Below, piece after piece: positions 43,460-51,457 of a DNA stretch of 64,000 nucleotides. Positions within the stretch are counted from its first letter, which is position 1. The number at the start of each line of letters is the position of its first letter. The translations under genes were made by a program, and so were the position numbers. This DNA comes from Jiangella asiatica (GTDB lineage: Bacteria > Actinomycetota > Actinomycetes > Jiangellales > Jiangellaceae). Below the pieces are notes generated by a model. The model searched no databases. It saw only the letters and a program-made list of their open reading frames with translations, and had not been told where the DNA came from. Location: NCBI RefSeq assembly GCF_004349065.1, contig NZ_SMKZ01000022.1:1-64000 (forward strand). The letters run 5' to 3'.

Positions 43460-44167
43460 GTGAACGTGGGTGACGTGAGCCGCCGCACCCTGGCGGACGA
43501 GCTCGCCACCGGCGTGGTCGAACTGATCCGTGAGCAGCGCCTCGAGCCCGGCGGCCAGCTCGACACGGTCCGTACGCTCGCCACCAGGTTCTCCGTCGCC
43601 GTCCCGACCATGCGGGAGGCGCTGCGCCGGCTGGAGGCGATGGGGGTCGTCGTGCTGCGGCACGGGTCCGGGGTGTACGTGGGCGAGAACGTGGGCCGCT
43701 CGGTGCTGCCGAATCCGCACAGCCCCATCCTCACCGGTGAGCGCCTGATCGACCTGCTCGAGGCGCGGCGGACCATCGAGCCGCCGATCGCCGCGATGGC
43801 CGCCACCGTCCGCGATCCCGACGGTGTGGCCCGGCTGACCGAGACGCTCGACGAGGCCGAGCAGTGCTTGCGCCTGCACGACGAGCGGCTCTGGATCGTC
43901 AACCTCGAGTTCCACCGCGCCCTGGCGCAGGCCTCCGGCAACACCGTCCTGGCCGAAGTGGTCGACTCGATCGTGCTGGTCCACGCGCAGGAGCAGCGCG
44001 AGATCCTGCGGCTGCACGGCGACGAGTCCGAGGACTTCGCCGAGCACCAGCGGATCATCCGGGCCGTGGTCGACGGGAGCGCCGACGAGGCCTTCGGGGC
44101 GACGCACGAGCACCTGACGAACGTCATCGACGTGATAAGAGCTCGCAACCTCGGCTCCGAACATTGA
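43460..44167 (+). CDS. FadR-type GntR transcriptional regulator
   Basis: This 235-residue regulator has a GntR winged helix (residues about 8-75: DTVRTLATRFSVAVPTMREA then LRRLEAMGVVVLRHGSGVYV) and a helical FCD ligand-binding domain (about 90-225), whose metal-binding pattern is seen in the Asp/His residues NLEFHRALAQASGN and DEHQRIIRAV (here EHQRIIRAV). FadR-type members usually sense sugar acids or other carboxylates, in keeping with the acid-sugar dehydratase later in the cluster. The start is GTG at 43460. It is probably the repressor of the transport and catabolic genes that follow in the same direction. Confidence 0.87.
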   Translation: MNVGDVSRRTLADELATGVVELIREQRLEPGGQLDTVRTLATRFSVAVPTMREALRRLEAMGVVVLRHGSGVYVGENVGRSVLPNPHSPILTGERLIDLLEARRTIEPPIAAMAATVRDPDGVARLTETLDEAEQCLRLHDERLWIVNLEFHRALAQASGNTVLAEVVDSIVLVHAQEQREILRLHGDESEDFAEHQRIIRAVVDGSADEAFGATHEHLTNVIDVIRARNLGSEH

Positions 44168-44255
44168 GCACTCGTCGGACATACTGACGTGTCACGATCG
44201 CGTGCCGATCGGTTATTTCAAAAGTCAAGTATTCACAACAACGAGGTGGTCGAAC

Positions 44256-45518
44256 GTGAGACTCCGTTACAGCGGGGCGGTCGCTGCCCTGGCAGCGTCG
44301 GCGCTCGTCCTGGCCGCGTGCGGCGGCGATGGCGACGACGAAGCTGCCGAGGCGCCGGGCACCGTGGCCTTCTACACCGACAAGGCCGCATGGGAACCAC
44401 AGTTCCTCGAGGTGTCCGACGTGTCCGAGAGCAGCCTGGGTCTGGGCCTGGACTTCACCGGCTACTCCGACGCCGACCAGTACTCGGCCTTCATCCGGCA
44501 GGCGTTCCGCACCGACGAGAAGCCCGAGCTGTTCACCTGGCACACCGGCAGCGAGCTGGAGGACCTGGTCGCCGAGGGTCTGGTGGCGCCGACGACGGAC
44601 ATCTGGCAGGCCGCGATCGACAACGGCGATGTCCCTGAGGCAATGCGCGAGTACTTCACCGTCGGCGAAGATCAGTACTGCGTCCCGATGAACGCCGCCT
44701 ACTGGGTCATGTACTACAACAAGGCGATCTTCGACGAGCACGGTCTGGCCGAGCCGACCAGCTGGGCCGAGCTGATGACCGCCGCCGACACCCTGCTGGC
44801 CGCGGGCGTCACGCCGTTCTACGAGACGAACATCCTGTTCTCGTTCGTCTGGTTCCAGACCCTGCTGGCCGGCACCGACCCGGAGCTGTACAACGCGCTG
44901 TCCAGCGGCGAGGCCAGCTACACCGACCCCGGCGTCGTCGAGGTGATGAACCAGTGGCGGGGGATGCTCGAGGCCGGCTACTTCGGTGACCCGGGCGACC
45001 AGACCACGCCGCAGGACCAGCTGAAGAACGGCACCGTCGCGATGATCAACTTCGGGACGTTCCTCAGCGGCCAGCTGAACAGCGTGGACATGGTGTCCGG
45101 CACCGACTACGACTTCTTCATCATCCCGAACGTCAACGCCGAGCTCCCGCAGACGTCGCTGATCTTCGAGACTGGCCCGATGTGCACCGCCGAGGAGGCG
45201 GAGAACCGCGACACCGCACTGCAGTATGCCGACTGGTGGATGAGCGAGGAGGCGCAGACGGCGTGGGCCAACGCCCGCGGTGACGTGTCCTTCAACCCGA
45301 AGGCACTGGTCAACGACGAGCAACTGGCGGCTCTCAACGAGGAGGCCAGCGCCGAGTCCTACCTGCTGCTGGAGCGGTACTTCGAGGCGACGCCGGTGCC
45401 GGTGCTGGCCGCCGCGCTGGACGGCTTCAGTGCGTTCGTCACCAACCCGGGCGACCCGATGCCGATCCTGGAGACCATCCAGGCCGAGGCGGACGCCTAC
45501 TGGAGCAGCCAGGGCTGA
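44256..45518 (+). CDS. ABC sugar-transporter solute-binding lipoprotein
   Basis: This 420-residue lipoprotein is the extracellular binding subunit of a CUT1-type carbohydrate importer. The signal peptide ends in the lipobox LVLAACGG (Cys about residue 22). The mature part has the family-1 pattern: NAAYWVMYYNKAIFDEHGL, TSWAELMTAADTL and a C-terminal YADWWMSEEAQTAWA. The GTG at 44256 has GAGGTGG seven bases upstream. A longer frame from 44202 would hide the signal peptide. The ligand is unknown. Two permease genes follow after 38 bases. No ATPase is in the cluster, so a shared MsiK-type ATPase elsewhere in the genome is expected. Confidence 0.9.
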   Translation: MRLRYSGAVAALAASALVLAACGGDGDDEAAEAPGTVAFYTDKAAWEPQFLEVSDVSESSLGLGLDFTGYSDADQYSAFIRQAFRTDEKPELFTWHTGSELEDLVAEGLVAPTTDIWQAAIDNGDVPEAMREYFTVGEDQYCVPMNAAYWVMYYNKAIFDEHGLAEPTSWAELMTAADTLLAAGVTPFYETNILFSFVWFQTLLAGTDPELYNALSSGEASYTDPGVVEVMNQWRGMLEAGYFGDPGDQTTPQDQLKNGTVAMINFGTFLSGQLNSVDMVSGTDYDFFIIPNVNAELPQTSLIFETGPMCTAEEAENRDTALQYADWWMSEEAQTAWANARGDVSFNPKALVNDEQLAALNEEASAESYLLLERYFEATPVPVLAAALDGFSAFVTNPGDPMPILETIQAEADAYWSSQG

Positions 45519-45556: not shown

Positions 45557-46495
45557 ATGTCCGGGCTGGCCGTCGCCGCGCCTGAACAGACACCCGAGCA
45601 CCCGACGGCGGCGTCGCGCCGGCGCCGTCGCGGGTCGTACCGATGGTCCGCGCGGGCGTTCAGCCTGCCGGCGGTGCTCGTGGTGGCGGTGCTGCTGTAT
45701 CTGCCGTTCCTGTGGACGACGTGGATCAGCTTCACCGAGTACAACGGTCTCGGCTCACCGTCGTGGGTCGGCCTGGACAACTACCGCGACATGTTCGCGG
45801 ATCCCAACTTCACCACCTCGCTGCGCAACACCCTGATCTGGGTCGTCGGCACCATCACGGTGCCGGTCAGCCTGGGTCTGCTGATCGCGGTGCTGTCGCA
45901 CGGGATGCGGTTCGGCAGCTGGTTCCGGCTGCCGTTCCTCATCCCGTACGCGATCTCCGGCGTCGCCGTCGGCGTCGTCTGGCGGTTCGTGCTCCAAAAC
46001 GGCGGCGGGCTGAGCCAGGCGCTGGACGCTCTCGGCCTGCCCGGTGCCGACTCCCGCTGGCTGCTGGACGCGCCGATGAACACGCTGGTGATGATCGGGG
46101 CCGCCGCCTGGCAGCAGACCGGCGTGAACGCGCTGCTGTTCGTCATAGGGCTGCAGTCGATCCCGCGGGAGCCGATCGAGGCGGCCAAGCTCGACGGTGC
46201 CTCCGGCTGGCGGATGTTCCGGCACATGCACTGGCCGATGCTGCGCCCCCTGACCACGGTCGTCGTCGGGCTGTCGCTGGTGGCCAGCCTGAAGACGTTC
46301 GACATCATCTGGGTGATGACCAAGGGCGGGCCTGGCCGCAACTCCGAGACGCTCGCGGTCACCATGTACGAGGAGACGTTCGTGACCAGCGCCTACGGGG
46401 CCGGCTCGGCGGTCGCGGTGTTCCTGACCGTCGTGACGTTCATCGCCGCCATCACCTACCTGCGCCGCCAGCTGTCGACCGAGAGGACGGTGTGA
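45557..46495 (+). CDS. ABC sugar-transporter permease, MalF-like
   Basis: This 312-residue inner-membrane subunit has about six helices after a basic N-terminus (SRRRRRGSYRW). The EAA loop that contacts the ATPase is EAAKLDGASGWRMFRHMHWP near residue 215. The pattern GLDNYRDMF after the first helix is typical of the first permease of CUT1 importers. The ATG at 45557 has GGAGGAG upstream. Its stop overlaps the start of the second permease gene (46492-46495). It should pair with that protein to import the substrate bound by the upstream lipoprotein. Confidence 0.92.
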   Translation: MSGLAVAAPEQTPEHPTAASRRRRRGSYRWSARAFSLPAVLVVAVLLYLPFLWTTWISFTEYNGLGSPSWVGLDNYRDMFADPNFTTSLRNTLIWVVGTITVPVSLGLLIAVLSHGMRFGSWFRLPFLIPYAISGVAVGVVWRFVLQNGGGLSQALDALGLPGADSRWLLDAPMNTLVMIGAAAWQQTGVNALLFVIGLQSIPREPIEAAKLDGASGWRMFRHMHWPMLRPLTTVVVGLSLVASLKTFDIIWVMTKGGPGRNSETLAVTMYEETFVTSAYGAGSAVAVFLTVVTFIAAITYLRRQLSTERTV

Positions 46496-47319
46496 CGTCC
46501 ATGGCCGCTCGCGTGCTGCGCCCCGCCATCCTGCTGATCCTCGGCCTCATCTGGCTGGTGCCGGTGTACCTGCTGGTCGTCAACGCCGCGAAGCCCGCGG
46601 CGCGTTACGCCTCGGACCAGGTCTGGCGGCCGGTCGGCGAGTTCGCCCTGTTCGACAACATCCAGGAGGCCTGGGAGCTGGCGGGCCTCGCCGACGCGGT
46701 CACGAGCACCCTCATCTACAGCGTCGTCGCACCGGCGCTGGCGGTGCTGATCGGCGCCGCGATCGGCTTCGGCATCGTCGCGCTGCGGCTGCGGCACGGG
46801 TTCTTTTGGTTCGTGCTCGTCTTCGGCGGCACGGTGTTCCCGCTGCAGATGATCCTGATGCCGTTGTTCGTGGGCTACGTCGAGGCCGAGATCTACGACA
46901 GCCGGCTCGGCATGCTCGCCATCTACACGGCCATCACGCTGCCGTTCTCCGCGCTGGTCATGCGCAACTTCCTCGGCGGCATCGCGCACCAGGTGTTCGA
47001 GGCCGCGGTCATGGACGGAGCCACCACCTGGCGGATCTTCTGGCGCATCTACCTGCCGATGTCCACCAGCGCGCTGGTGGCGGTGTTCATCCTGCAGGCC
47101 ACGTTCGTCTGGAACGACCTGCTGCTTGGGCTGGTGCTGAGCCAGTCCGACGAGGTCCGCCCGCTCATGACGGCGCTGACCAGCCTGCAGAACACCTACG
47201 GCGGGTCCCAGCTGGTGACGGTCCTCGCCGGCGGCCTGCTGGTGTCGCTGCCGACGGTCGTGCTGTTCCTGTCCACCCAGCGCATCTTCAGCCGGGGCCT
47301 CAACCTCGGCCAGTTCTAG
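46492..47319 (+). CDS. ABC sugar-transporter permease, MalG-like
   Basis: This 275-residue second permease has about six helices. The EAA loop is EAAVMDGATTWRIFWRIYLP near residue 180, and the C-terminus ends in QRIFSRGLNLGQF, close to the usual MalG-family ending (F-x-x-G-x-x-x-G-A-V-K) but without the final Ala-Val-Lys. The start is GTG at 46492, overlapping the preceding stop as GTGA. GGAGG follows just after the stop and serves the next gene, 11 bases away. Confidence 0.92.
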   Translation: MTSMAARVLRPAILLILGLIWLVPVYLLVVNAAKPAARYASDQVWRPVGEFALFDNIQEAWELAGLADAVTSTLIYSVVAPALAVLIGAAIGFGIVALRLRHGFFWFVLVFGGTVFPLQMILMPLFVGYVEAEIYDSRLGMLAIYTAITLPFSALVMRNFLGGIAHQVFEAAVMDGATTWRIFWRIYLPMSTSALVAVFILQATFVWNDLLLGLVLSQSDEVRPLMTALTSLQNTYGGSQLVTVLAGGLLVSLPTVVLFLSTQRIFSRGLNLGQF

Positions 47320-47330
47320 GAGGAAACCCG

Positions 47331-48125
47331 ATGAGGGTTGTCGTGGTCACCGGTGGTGGCGCGGGCATCGGGCGGGCCGCCGTCGAGCGGTTCGCGAACG
47401 ACGGTGAGCTGGTGGTCGCGTTGGATCGCGACGCCGCGGCACTGGACGATCTGGCCGGCCGGGCCGCCGATGCCGGGTGGACCGTGCGCACGCAGCAGCT
47501 CGACGTCGCCGACGACGTAGCGGTCGGGCGGCGCGCCGCGGAGCTGGCCGAGGAGTTCGAGACCATCGACGCCCTGGTCTGCGCTGCCGGCATCCAGCGG
47601 TACGGCACCGTCGAGGAGACCAGCATGGAGCTGTTCGACGAGGTCGTCGGCGTCAACCTGCGCGGGGTCTTCGCGACCTGCCATCACCTGATGCCACTGC
47701 TGCGGGCCGACGGCGGCGGCAGCGTCGTCGTCGTGTCGTCCATCCAGGCCTACGCGTCGCAGTCCGGAGTGGCCGCCTACGCCGCCACCAAAGGCGCACT
47801 GTTGGCGCTGGTCCGGTCGATGGCCGTCGACCACGCGCGCGACGGGGTCCGTGTCAACGCCGTCTGCCCGGGCTCGGTCGACACGCCGATGCTGCGCTGG
47901 GCCGCCGAGCTGTTCAGCGACGGCCGCCCGGCCGACGACGTCGTCGCGGAGTGGGGCCGCACGCACCCGCTCGGCCGGGTGGCCCGGCCCGGCGAGGTGG
48001 CGGACGCGATCGCGTACCTGGCCGGACCGCAGGCGAGCTTCGTCACCGGCACCGAACTGGTCGTCGACGGTGGCGTCCGGGCGGCGCTGGGGGTAGCGCT
48101 GCCGGAATCGACAGGGGGTAACTGA
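47331..48125 (+). CDS. Short-chain dehydrogenase/reductase
   Basis: This 264-residue classical SDR has the NAD(P)-binding TGGGAGIG at residues 7-14, the Asp at the end of strand 2 (VALDRDA) that favours NAD over NADP, CAAGI in place of NNAG, and the catalytic Ser (VVSSIQA) and Tyr-x-x-x-Lys (YAATK). The C-terminal GTELVVDGG is typical. It probably oxidises a sugar or a sugar-acid hydroxyl imported by the adjacent transporter, perhaps to the lactone or acid used by the next enzyme. AGGAGG lies before the ATG at 47331. The next gene begins four bases after the stop. Confidence 0.9.
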
Positions 48126-48129
48126 GCAG

Positions 48130-49371
48130 ATGCACATCGTGGACGTACGAGCGACCACCGTCACGGTGCCGCTCGAGGCGCCGCTGCGGCACAGCAACGG
48201 CGCGCACTGGGGGCGGTTCGTCCGGACGGTCGTGGAGGTCGAGGCCGACAACGGGCTGATCGGCCTGGGGGAGATGGGCGGCGGCGGGCAGAGCGCGGAG
48301 GAGGCCGTGCGCGGCCTGCGCGAGTACCTCGTCGGCCACGACCCCGCCCGCACCGAGGCGCTGCGGTTCATGCTGGCCAACCCGACCGCCAGCCTCTACA
48401 ACAACCGCACCCAGCTGCTGGCGGCCATCGAGTTCGCCTGCCTGGACCTGCAGGGTCAGCACCTGGGCGTGCCCGTGCACGAGCTGCTCGGCGGCAAGGT
48501 GCGCGACCGCGTGCCCTTCGCCAGCTACCTGTTCTTCCGCTACCCGGCGGCCGACGGAACCGGCGAGGTCCGCACCCCGGAGCAGCTGGTCGAGCAGGCC
48601 CGCGAGCTCAAGGCCCGCCGAGGTTTCACCGTCCACAAGCTCAAGGGGGGTGTGTTCCCGCCGGAGTACGAGCTCGAGTGCTACCGCGCGCTGGCCGAGG
48701 CGTTCCCCGGCGACCGGCTGCGCCACGACCCGAACGGCGCGCTCTCCGTCGAGGACGGCATCCGGTTCGCCAGGGCCATCGAGGACCTCGACAACGACTA
48801 CCTCGAGGATCCCACGTACGGCATGAACGGCCTGCGCCGGGTCCGCGAGCGTACGACGATCCCGATCGCCACCAACACCGTCGTGGTCAACTTCGAGCAG
48901 CTGGCGGCGAACGTCCGCGACCCCGCCGTCGACGTCGTCCTGCTCGACACGACGTTCTGGGGCGGCATTCGCCCGTGCATTCGCGCCGCCGGGGTGTGCG
49001 AGACGTTCCAGCTCGGCGTCGCGGTGCACTCGTCTGGCGAGCTGGGCATCCAGCTGGCGACGATGCTCCACCTGGGCGCCGTCGTGCCCAACCTGTCGTT
49101 CGCGGCCGACGCCCACTACCACCATCTGACCGGCGACGTCGTCACCGGCGGGCCGCTGGCCTACCGCGACGGGGCCATCGACGTGCCGGCGGCGCCGGGG
49201 CTCGGCGTCACGCTAGACCGGGACAAGCTGGCCGAGTACGCCGAGCTGTACCGCGAGTTGGGCAGCTACCCGTACGATCGCGACCCCGGCCGCCCCGGCT
49301 GGTACCCGCTGCTCCCCAACGGCAGCTGGGCCGACCCGGCCGCCGCCGGTCCCGTCGACCTCGCCTCGTGA
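48130..49371 (+). CDS. Enolase-superfamily acid-sugar dehydratase (GlucD-like)
   Basis: This 413-residue enolase-superfamily enzyme should dehydrate an acid sugar. It has the K-x-K pair in HKLKGG, the metal ligands Asp (RHDPNGA), Glu (YLEDPTYG) and Asn ([10 protein letters not shown]), and the His/Asp dyad in [10 protein letters not shown] and LLDTTFWGG. This set follows the glucarate-dehydratase subgroup, although the usual HSNNH is HSSGE here, so another hexarate or aldonate is likely. The ATG at 48130 follows the SDR stop by four bases. No aldolase or 5-keto-4-deoxyglucarate dehydratase is in the cluster, so the product must be handled elsewhere. Confidence 0.85.
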
Positions 49372-49390
49372 GAAGGGTTCTGATCGATCC

Positions 49391-51457
49391 ATGCGGGTGA
49401 CACCGACCGTCGACGACTTCACCGCCGACACCGTCACGCAGCGCTACGACGACATGTTCAACCCGCCGGGGCTGACCAACTTCCTCGGCGCCGTCCAGGT
49501 CGACCACGACGTGACGGCCGTGCGCAGCGTCAACTTCGCGCCGGTCTCCCACGGTGACACCGTCACCGCGGCGCTGTTCGTCGACGGCCGGCTGTTCCGG
49601 TCCTTCGGCTCGCCGGTCTCGGTCCAGTGGCGCCCGGACCGCGTGGTCCGCTCCGCTCAGCTGGGCGACCTGGCCATCACGACGACGACGGCGACACCGC
49701 CCGGCCTCAGCGGTGTCGTCGTCGACATCGAGGTCACGAACATCTCCGACGCGCCGCGGACGGTCCGGCTGGGCCTGTCGGTCGCGTCGTCGGTCACGCG
49801 GACGACACCGTGGCGCGCGTCGATCCCCCCGTCGGAGCCGAACACGCTGGAGCTCGCGGCCGGCCGGGCGGCACTGCTGGGCCGGGCATCGTCGTCGGCC
49901 GCGGTGAGCGTCCAGGGCGTCGACGCCGACGACGCTCGAGTGCGCGGCCGCTCGGTCGAGGTCGACGCGACCATCGATGCCGGAGCCACCTACCGGCTCG
50001 GCTACGCGCACGTCATCGCCGTCGCCGAGGAGGAGGCGCTGGCGGCCTACGACGCCGCCGTGGCGGACGTGCCCGGAGGGATCGCCGCGGCCCGCGACTC
50101 CTGGAACGCCACGCTGGAGGCCGCGTTCACCCCCGGCAACAACGAGTTCAGCGGGCACGTCCCGACCCTGGAGACGTCGAACGACGCGCTGCGCCGGCTC
50201 TACTGGTGGGGTGTGCTGGGCGTCATCTGGTTCCGCCGTGACAACCCGGCCAGCGTTCTCGGCCGGGTCTACGACACCTTGATGCCCCGGAACTGGCAGA
50301 CCACCACGTTCATCTGGGACTTCAGCCTCAGCTCGATGATCCACGCGCTGCTGGACCCGGAGCCGATGCGCAAGCAGATCGAGCACTGGATCGCGCTGGA
50401 CATTCACCGGCACTTCGGCACCGAGTGGCAGACCGGCGGGCCGGCCGGCTACTGGTACTCCGTCAACGACTACGCCATGACCCGTCTGGTCCGCGACTAC
50501 GTGCGCTGGAACGGCCGGCCCGACTTCCTCGAGGTCAAGCTGGCCGCGCACGACGGCCCGGCGCGGCCGGTCGCCGACCACGTCAGCGACTGGGCCACCG
50601 CCTGGGAGCGGTTCCGCACGTCGCACGCGCTGGCCGACTACGGCGAGATCGACAACCTCATGGAATGCGTCAGTTCCTACATCCACGAGGTGGCCAGCCT
50701 CAACGCCGCCAACGTGTGGTGCATGCGGGCCGCTGCCGATATCGCCTCGCTGCGCGGCGACGACGGCGCGGCCGCGGACCTGCGTGAGCGGGCCGCCGCA
50801 CTGGTACCGCACGTGCGTGAGCTCTACGTCGAGGGCGAGGGGTTCTGGCACGCCCGGCAGCCCGACGGCCGGATGGTCCCGGTGCGGCACTGCTACGACT
50901 TCACCACAGTCGGCATGACCATCGCCGCCGACCTGCCCGAACGGCAGCGCGCGGAGATGGTCGAGTTCTTCGTCCGCGAGCTGCGCACACCGGCGTGGAT
51001 GCGGGCGCTGTCGCCGTACGACGACGACGCCAGCTTCAGCCTGCGCCCGGACCACCAGTGGAACGGGGCCTACCCAGCCTGGCCCGCCGACGCCGCCCGG
51101 TCGCTCATCGAGCTGGGCCGGCCCGACGTCGCCGCGGACTGGCTGCCCGGCCTGGCCCGCACCGCCAACCAGGGCCCGCCCGCGCAGGCACACCTCGTCG
51201 AGGAGGCGGGTGATCCGGTCAACGGCGGAGCGGTGAAGGCGCCGCCGCAGATCCCGTACATGATCGACTGGTCTTGCTCGGCCGCGGGCGCGTGGGCGGC
51301 GCTGGTCGTCGAGGGATTCTTCGGTGTCCGGCCGGACGTGGACGGGACGGTCTGGGTGGAGTCCCAGCTGGCCGCGGTCGACCCCGGCGCCCGGTTGCGA
51401 AATCTGCGGATCGGCGACGCGCTGGTGGACGTCTCAGTAGACGGCGTCATCGGTTGA
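49391..51457 (+). CDS. Putative six-hairpin-type glycoside hydrolase (unassigned)
   Basis: This 688-residue protein without a signal peptide should act in the cytoplasm. Residues 1-230 look beta-rich (VTNISDAPRTVRLGLSVAS), and from about 250 the chain is helical with motifs like those of (alpha/alpha)6 glycosidases such as GH63 or GH15: TFIWDFSLSSMIHALLDP, LHRHFGTEWQTGGPAGYW (here IHRHFGTEWQTGGPAGYW) and a late DHQWNGAYPAWPADAARS. WDFS and QWNG could hold the acid and base. I cannot assign a family. As the last gene of the sugar cluster it probably releases the acid-sugar precursor from an imported glycoside. The ATG at 49391 is 19 bases after the previous stop. Confidence 0.6.
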   Translation: MRVTPTVDDFTADTVTQRYDDMFNPPGLTNFLGAVQVDHDVTAVRSVNFAPVSHGDTVTAALFVDGRLFRSFGSPVSVQWRPDRVVRSAQLGDLAITTTTATPPGLSGVVVDIEVTNISDAPRTVRLGLSVASSVTRTTPWRASIPPSEPNTLELAAGRAALLGRASSSAAVSVQGVDADDARVRGRSVEVDATIDAGATYRLGYAHVIAVAEEEALAAYDAAVADVPGGIAAARDSWNATLEAAFTPGNNEFSGHVPTLETSNDALRRLYWWGVLGVIWFRRDNPASVLGRVYDTLMPRNWQTTTFIWDFSLSSMIHALLDPEPMRKQIEHWIALDIHRHFGTEWQTGGPAGYWYSVNDYAMTRLVRDYVRWNGRPDFLEVKLAAHDGPARPVADHVSDWATAWERFRTSHALADYGEIDNLMECVSSYIHEVASLNAANVWCMRAAADIASLRGDDGAAADLRERAAALVPHVRELYVEGEGFWHARQPDGRMVPVRHCYDFTTVGMTIAADLPERQRAEMVEFFVRELRTPAWMRALSPYDDDASFSLRPDHQWNGAYPAWPADAARSLIELGRPDVAADWLPGLARTANQGPPAQAHLVEEAGDPVNGGAVKAPPQIPYMIDWSCSAAGAWAALVVEGFFGVRPDVDGTVWVESQLAAVDPGARLRNLRIGDALVDVSVDGVIG

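Follow-up and report, generated by a model that had tools for sequence, protein, structure and literature searches.

A glycosidase-like protein of the (alpha/alpha)6 fold, encoded beside a sugar importer and one of two alternative catabolic modules, as a candidate cytoplasmic D-mannose-releasing enzyme

Several described systems resemble parts of the locus studied here. In Thermoplasma, the dehydrogenase AldT and a mannonate dehydratase, encoded by adjacent genes, oxidize mannose (PMC6901390). In the D-arabinan locus of Microbacterium, the exo-enzymes belong to GH172 and GH116, and the route encoded there leads to ribulose 5-phosphate (PMC10509167). GH183 enzymes studied thus far cut D-arabinan, and DgGH4185b has two catalytic aspartates, 18 residues apart (PMC10115798). 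In GH63, GH37 and GH94, helices 5 and 6 of the barrel are separated by an insert that carries the acid; GH63, GH78 and GH37 share another position, which is that of their base (PMC7263609). In MhGgH, a PF22422-type relative, roles are given for D43, D182 and E419 (PMC6608630). Among the papers listed in our searches of the open literature, none treats the glycosidase/importer system presented below. We know of no activity for any member of this glycosidase family. We offer a testable function for the family, to which no GH family is assigned: its members would be cytoplasmic, inverting exo-glycoside hydrolases of the (alpha/alpha)6 type, similar to GH63, GH94 and GH78, that free an aldose, most likely D-mannose, from an imported oligosaccharide. 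We hold this proposal tentatively, with a little less than even confidence.

The window, that is, the whole stretch of DNA analysed, is 64,000 nucleotides long and comes from Jiangella asiatica (contig NZ_SMKZ01000022.1, positions 1 to 64,000 of the forward strand). The gene under study stands at the end of the following cluster, as it does in loci with SDR and dehydratase genes.

43460..44164, + strand: GntR/FCD regulator, from the family scan
44202..45518, + strand: ABC substrate-binding protein, sugar type, from weak matches under the cut-offs
45557..46495, + strand: ABC permease A, sugar type (GlcT, 122 bits, under the model's cut-off)
46492..47319, + strand: ABC permease B, named from place and sequence; start approximate
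47328..48125, + strand: SDR dehydrogenase, with glucose 1-dehydrogenases as best PDB matches; start codon provisional
48130..49371, + strand: sugar-acid dehydratase of the enolase superfamily, glucarate-dehydratase-like (KxK), from sequence matches
49391..51457, + strand: glycosidase-like gene, ATG start, 688 aa, (alpha/alpha)6 glycoside hydrolase-like, without visible signal peptide

The ORF list also holds a minus-strand ORF of 661 aa (49208-51193) that overlaps this gene, and the codon-position G+C score favours the plus-strand ORF. One genome scan gave 119 relatives. Because the best 80 of these match the 688-residue protein nearly end to end, at 45-80% identity over the best segment, it is no chance ORF, and the earlier note was right to read 49391-51457 as a real gene. 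Inspection by eye found no hydrophobic stretch at the N-terminus, so that a cytoplasmic location, also claimed in that note, is likely as far as the sequence tells. The family is rare: at E <= 1e-20 it was found in 3 of 396 genomes of the phylum, the window genome counted. Besides one Ignavibacteriaceae genome (locus L081), those with a member include Jiangella, Kribbella, Microbacterium, Glycomyces and further taxa. A phmmer search of PDB sequences with the whole protein gave no match.

Neighbours were counted around the best 80 of the 119 relatives by tblastn at E <= 1e-15, with one query per family; the neighbour gene tables come from a clustering of crude gene calls and include some false minus-strand ORFs. 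The importer is found in most of these loci (substrate-binding protein in 75 of 80, each permease in 76). Type A loci, of which there are 37 and to which the window gene likewise belongs, have the dehydratase (37), the SDR (36) and a GntR regulator (34), together with an AXE1-type esterase in 12 and a propeller protein, c3, in 26; in the gene tables, the AXE1-type esterase lies between dehydratase and glycosidase in 8 type A loci. Type B loci (40 of 80) have a mannose-6-phosphate-isomerase-like protein, c5 (40), a LacI regulator (36) and a ROK kinase (34), with a GDSL-type esterase in 13 and c3 in 36. One type B locus has an SDR match and one type A locus a LacI match. The dehydratase and the isomerase-like gene occur together in none of the 80 loci of the best relatives, and the three loci with neither module (L026, L037, L062) are all on short or cut stretches. 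The tie of the glycosidase to its cluster, from which the earlier note drew a link to the pathway, is supported by this gene association across 80 loci. Its claim of a fixed place at the cluster end applies to the SDR/dehydratase loci; in the isomerase-like/ROK type, the glycosidase gene comes after the permease genes.

In a tree of 79 proteins, made by a quick method and with several long branches and an uncertain deep part, the B label changes four times, three of them forced by well-supported branches, and the A label changes three times, two of them forced. L054 (Tessaracoccus) and L075, both type B, lie within a well-supported group of 15 proteins, 13 of which are type A. The module has been swapped at least two or three times, with importer and glycosidase retained. 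Because two disposal routes alternate behind the same importer and enzyme, there is probably one common released sugar, and both types of locus probably handle one and the same sugar. That either of two catabolic modules can accompany one enzyme and its importer amounts to a natural experiment, from which the choice of released sugar can be narrowed before any assay. AXE1, GDSL and PF00756 esterases, three families in all, adjoin relatives, which suggests that the substrate of the pathway is acylated.

The SDR of the window is of the classical type, nearest to aldohexose dehydrogenases. Its best PDB matches, 3vtz and 2dtd, both deposited as glucose 1-dehydrogenases, score 169 and 155 bits, a modest lead over the 145 of other SDRs; 2dtd is presumably Thermoplasma AldT. 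The SDR is below the cut-off of all 25 NCBIfam models listed, and none of its 53 PDB matches at E <= 1e-30 is a uronate dehydrogenase by name. The nearest matches of the dehydratase are putative glucarate dehydratases, with ManD further away, and its K170, K172, D200, E226, N249, D273 and H300 are identical in five aligned rows; the glucarate-dehydratase likeness is therefore a point in favour of a uronate. Enolase-superfamily sugar-acid dehydratases act on many acids. On the type B side, one c5 member matches the mannose-6-phosphate isomerase 1qwr (E 3.3e-8), and among 36 aligned c5 rows LQVHP and TQDESYY are retained in the consensus at the level of 90% or more, while PAGxxH is present in 35; we take QVHP, QDE and PAGTxH to be metal-site motifs of mannose-6-phosphate isomerase. 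When c5 proteins were compared with Pfam and NCBIfam, nothing came above cut-off. The ROK protein passes the Pfam ROK model, and ROK kinases are best known for acting on hexoses. The isomerase-like/ROK module and the SDR/dehydratase module can each fit D-mannose, and we put the chance that the released sugar is mannose at about one half.

The propeller gene c3 is found near 62 of the best 80 of 119 relatives. None is near the window gene, and the window genome has three weak partial matches (E 3e-6 to 4e-6, one query member). The predicted structure of c3 (pLDDT 89.7) matches 4hbs (Z 32.8, E 6.5e-17) and the GH183 enzyme EndoMA1 (Z 28.3, E 1.7e-13), and others have Z <= 20. The c3 member of locus L042 scores 35 bits with DUF4185 (cut-off 39.5) and 33.7 bits with DUF5005 (cut-off 29.6), and the DUF4185 proteins of L081 reach 55.7 and 106.9 bits, above the 39.5-bit cut-off. 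Two aspartates of c3, 18 residues apart, are kept: of 23 rows, 21 have D65 and 22 have D83, the others being gaps (2 and 1). We regard c3 as a GH183-like secreted branch that possibly acts on something other than D-arabinan.

Rather unlikely, in our estimate, is that the same type of enzyme and the same pathway logic serve another sugar, namely D-arabinose, lyxose, talose or some other aldose that fits both modules. The closeness of the secreted companion to 4hbs and to GH183 endo-D-arabinanases, with its Asp pair kept, the many acids used by the dehydratase superfamily and the non-specific SDR match are all consistent with such a sugar, whereas the mannose-6-phosphate isomerase type of c5 and the hexoses on which ROK kinases are best known argue for mannose. 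As for D-arabinose, neither a GH172 nor a GH116 gene was found among the scanned neighbours (one member each of six clusters and some L081 and L084 genes), which speaks against it.

Around the Ignavibacteriaceae gene at L081, which is from another phylum than the window, are encoded two DUF4185 proteins and GH38-family, esterase, ROK and c5-like proteins, the last recognized by its motifs and without a Pfam match. GH38 enzymes are mostly alpha-mannosidases. A GH78-type N-terminal fragment closes the locus. One DUF4185 (GH183-type) protein, L081:6895-7971, has no visible signal peptide and is encoded directly before the glycosidase gene; it is perhaps a cytoplasmic GH183-like enzyme. The second carries a secretion tail. 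In the c5 proteins L057:2125-4830 and L081:12212-14062, which come from two phyla, the N-terminal ~230 residues match no recognized family.

The window genome has a paralogue of the glycosidase on contig C33 (L084 9517-11628, minus strand), which gave no match with PF22422. Beside it are encoded a dehydratase that shares 72% identity with its window paralogue, and DUF6807, cupin, UPF0261 and SMP-30 proteins, and ABC transporter genes, recognized by eye, adjoin these genes. The second copy thus repeats the association of enzyme and dehydratase, and the region L084:5332-12581 is a third arrangement of the system. A plasmid search found only partial relatives (~35% identity), spread over five Streptomyces and Embleya records. 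A LamG-annotated protein on a Streptomyces atratus plasmid (L132:11122-14070) contains a distant copy of the glycosidase; it probably has a signal peptide, judged by eye, and keeps the equivalents of D310 and D416.

An AlphaFold2 model of the 688-residue protein was made from an alignment of the window protein with 33 of the best 80 relatives (34 rows). The model (pLDDT 88.8, pTM 0.91) begins with a beta domain, which two linker helices join to an (alpha/alpha)6 barrel; a small beta part follows at the C-terminus. It is less certain in the loops at ~540-560 and 590-630.

49391..50020, + strand: N-terminal beta domain, ~residues 1-210, strands in the model; boundary approximate
50027..50125, + strand: linker helices, residues 213-245, from the model
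50165..51319, + strand: (alpha/alpha)6 barrel, ~residues 259-643, from the model and fold searches; boundary approximate

With strands up to residue 210 and a helical remainder, the model reproduces the beta-rich N-terminal domain and the helical part described in the earlier note, and its suggestion of an (alpha/alpha)6 glycosidase is supported by structure prediction and fold search, which led to GH94, GH78 and GH63. Foldseek ranks GH94 cellobiose phosphorylases at the top (E 4e-21), with GH63 YgjK from rank 13. VIA-align gives Z 29.6 over 397 residues to GH78 and Z 28.7 over 619 residues to GH94, a tie, the Z range to the two families being 28-30. By its predicted fold, the protein appears to belong with the (alpha/alpha)6 enzymes of GH94, GH78 and GH63.

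The whole protein reaches the cut-off of no Pfam or NCBIfam model and has no match to PF22422 (MGH1-like) up to E 10. Taken alone, the catalytic half (residues 403-688) passes the PF22422 cut-off of 27 bits with 35.9 bits, in a match that covers profile positions ~173-347 of 356 only; a longer catalytic piece scores 32.7 bits and a six-frame genome search 32.9 bits. The L081 relative passes PF22422 as a whole protein (40.1 bits). The statement that there is no clear family is partly supported: against Pfam and NCBIfam it holds for the whole protein, less so for its catalytic half and for L081. The hhalign comparison of the family with five PF22422-type proteins gave E 1.2e-5 and a probability of 81%, and a model built from 11 PF22422-type proteins detects all 13 family members tried, the window protein at 19.5 bits. 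At E <= 1, GH94 touches 12 of the 34 aligned members and PF22422 touches 8. The GH94 model has no match in the window protein, and its best score among the 34 members, 24.8 bits for L081 (E 1.1e-5), is below the Pfam cut-off of 27 bits; the profile of the 34 rows touches chitobiose phosphorylase at E 0.003, with no individual stretch significant. The GH78 rhamnosidase model PF17389 has no match in the window protein and touches 2 of the 34 members (best E 0.0086). A search of 40 relatives found no strong GH94 gene, with six weak matches of which two were above cut-off, and 148 genomes of the same class have none at E <= 1e-30. Because of the profile matches, the protein is placed by sequence in the PF22422/GH94 superfamily, at superfamily level only and in no defined GH family.

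Conservation was followed in 86 aligned rows, in which W309, D310, D416, E425, D554 and H555 are invariant. W557 is kept in 84 rows and N558 in 83, so the Trp-Asp and Trp-Asn motifs pointed out in the earlier note are indeed conserved. Candidate catalytic sites are as follows.

50315..50320, + strand: W309-D310, 86/86 rows, paired by hhalign with SWD in PF22422-type proteins, putative -1 subsite
50636..50638, + strand: D416, favoured candidate for the general acid, 86/86 rows
51053..51067, + strand: H555-G559 (HQWNG), paired by HMMER with WRG in PF22422-type proteins
51200..51202, + strand: E604, favoured candidate for the general base, E in 80/86 rows and D in 3/86

The model puts D416 within the long loop 409-434, and the last long helix (630-643) is preceded by the loop that carries E604. 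D416 pairs with DWND of chitobiose phosphorylase, in a stretch that scores only 5.9 bits, and a second alignment (with 4zle) would have E419, three residues further on, as the acid; this residue is variable (E in 51 rows, G in 30 of 86) and was set aside. D421, which hhalign pairs with the Asp of GxDNS, was rejected, and D416 is preferred to it, because D421 varies (D in only 76 of 86 rows; E, A, Q, N, G or H in others). The invariant E425 is a possible acid. The hhalign and HMMER alignments place the WD and WRG-like motifs and end before E604, which is therefore assigned by position only; the three rows without a carboxylate there (A, L and V once each) include the Streptomyces and Embleya rows. 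We take the base position shared by GH63, GH78 and GH37 as the C-terminal loop. GH63 hydrolases carry an Asp acid in the A' region and a Glu base near the C-terminus; the loop positions of D416 and E604, conserved candidates placed from sequence, may fit this layout, although the alignments disagree on the acid.

An attack by phosphate, as in GH94, would instead yield one sugar as its 1-phosphate and release the other free. That GH94 heads the Foldseek list, with top rows aligned over 619-630 residues, that its model touches about a third of the aligned members (12/34) and that D416 aligns, weakly, with DWND agree with a phosphorylase. We nevertheless think one unlikely: the GH94 score stays under its cut-off even in L081, whereas PF22422, a hydrolase family, is passed, and 83 of 86 rows have a carboxylate at 604, where hydrolases carry their base, a correspondence made by position. 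A uronate or rhamnose glycosidase, with SDR and dehydratase as uronate dehydrogenase and aldarate dehydratase, was suggested by the substrates named in the earlier note and is improbable: for uronate, the dehydratase likeness with its KxK, N249 and H300 has against it an SDR nearest to aldohexose dehydrogenases, with no uronate dehydrogenase among its named matches, and a type B module (40/80 loci) unsuited to a uronate, and for rhamnose, the GH78 Z score, within 1 of GH94, and the fragment that closes L081 have against them the near silence of PF17389.

The favoured reading, a mannose-releasing hydrolase, would then run as follows, in the order of steps that we presume. A secreted GH183-like propeller, encoded beside most relatives and absent beside the window gene, would cut a glycan outside the cell, and the sugar ABC transporter would bring in an oligosaccharide. 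Some genomes also encode an esterase, with no signal peptide visible, that would remove acyl groups. The 688-residue enzyme would hydrolyse the presumed linkage with inversion, D416 acting as acid and E604 as base, and liberate the aldose, most likely D-mannose. In type A loci, the SDR would turn this sugar into a lactone and the enolase-superfamily enzyme would dehydrate the sugar acid, and in type B loci the ROK kinase and the mannose-6-phosphate-isomerase-like enzyme would route the same sugar to glycolysis. A fuller version is possible, although on balance doubtful: a new GH family that frees mannose from an acylated oligosaccharide, itself made outside the cell by a new GH183-like branch, with importer and enzyme kept while an oxidative and a phosphorylating mannose pathway were swapped.

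Compared with known enzymes, the window protein shares the (alpha/alpha)6 barrel with the PF22422 MGH1-like enzymes (GH63 mannosylglycerate/glucosylglycerate hydrolases such as MhGgH), and the WD and WRG-like motifs of PF22422-type proteins align with it. It differs from the short PF22422 members by an additional N-terminal beta domain, and the ESGxDNS stretch of PF22422-type proteins becomes LADYGxxDN in the window family. With GH94 phosphorylases (chitobiose, cellobiose) it has the domain order in common over the full length (top rows of 619-630 residues, Z 28-29), but the top VIA-align rows are just 11-16% identical to it. The GH78 alpha-L-rhamnosidases Rha-2 of Aspergillus and AoRhaA align over ~400 residues (Z 29.4-29.6), and their acid sits elsewhere (PMC7263609). 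At the level of the locus, the AldT-ManD mannose route of Thermoplasma likewise has a dehydrogenase gene beside a dehydratase gene, but the window dehydratase is glucarate-dehydratase-like. The Microbacterium D-arabinan locus (PMC10509167) likewise combines a secreted DUF4185/GH183 enzyme, a sugar ABC transporter and an (alpha/alpha)6 exo-enzyme, whereas the present system has a different GH and mannose-type modules.
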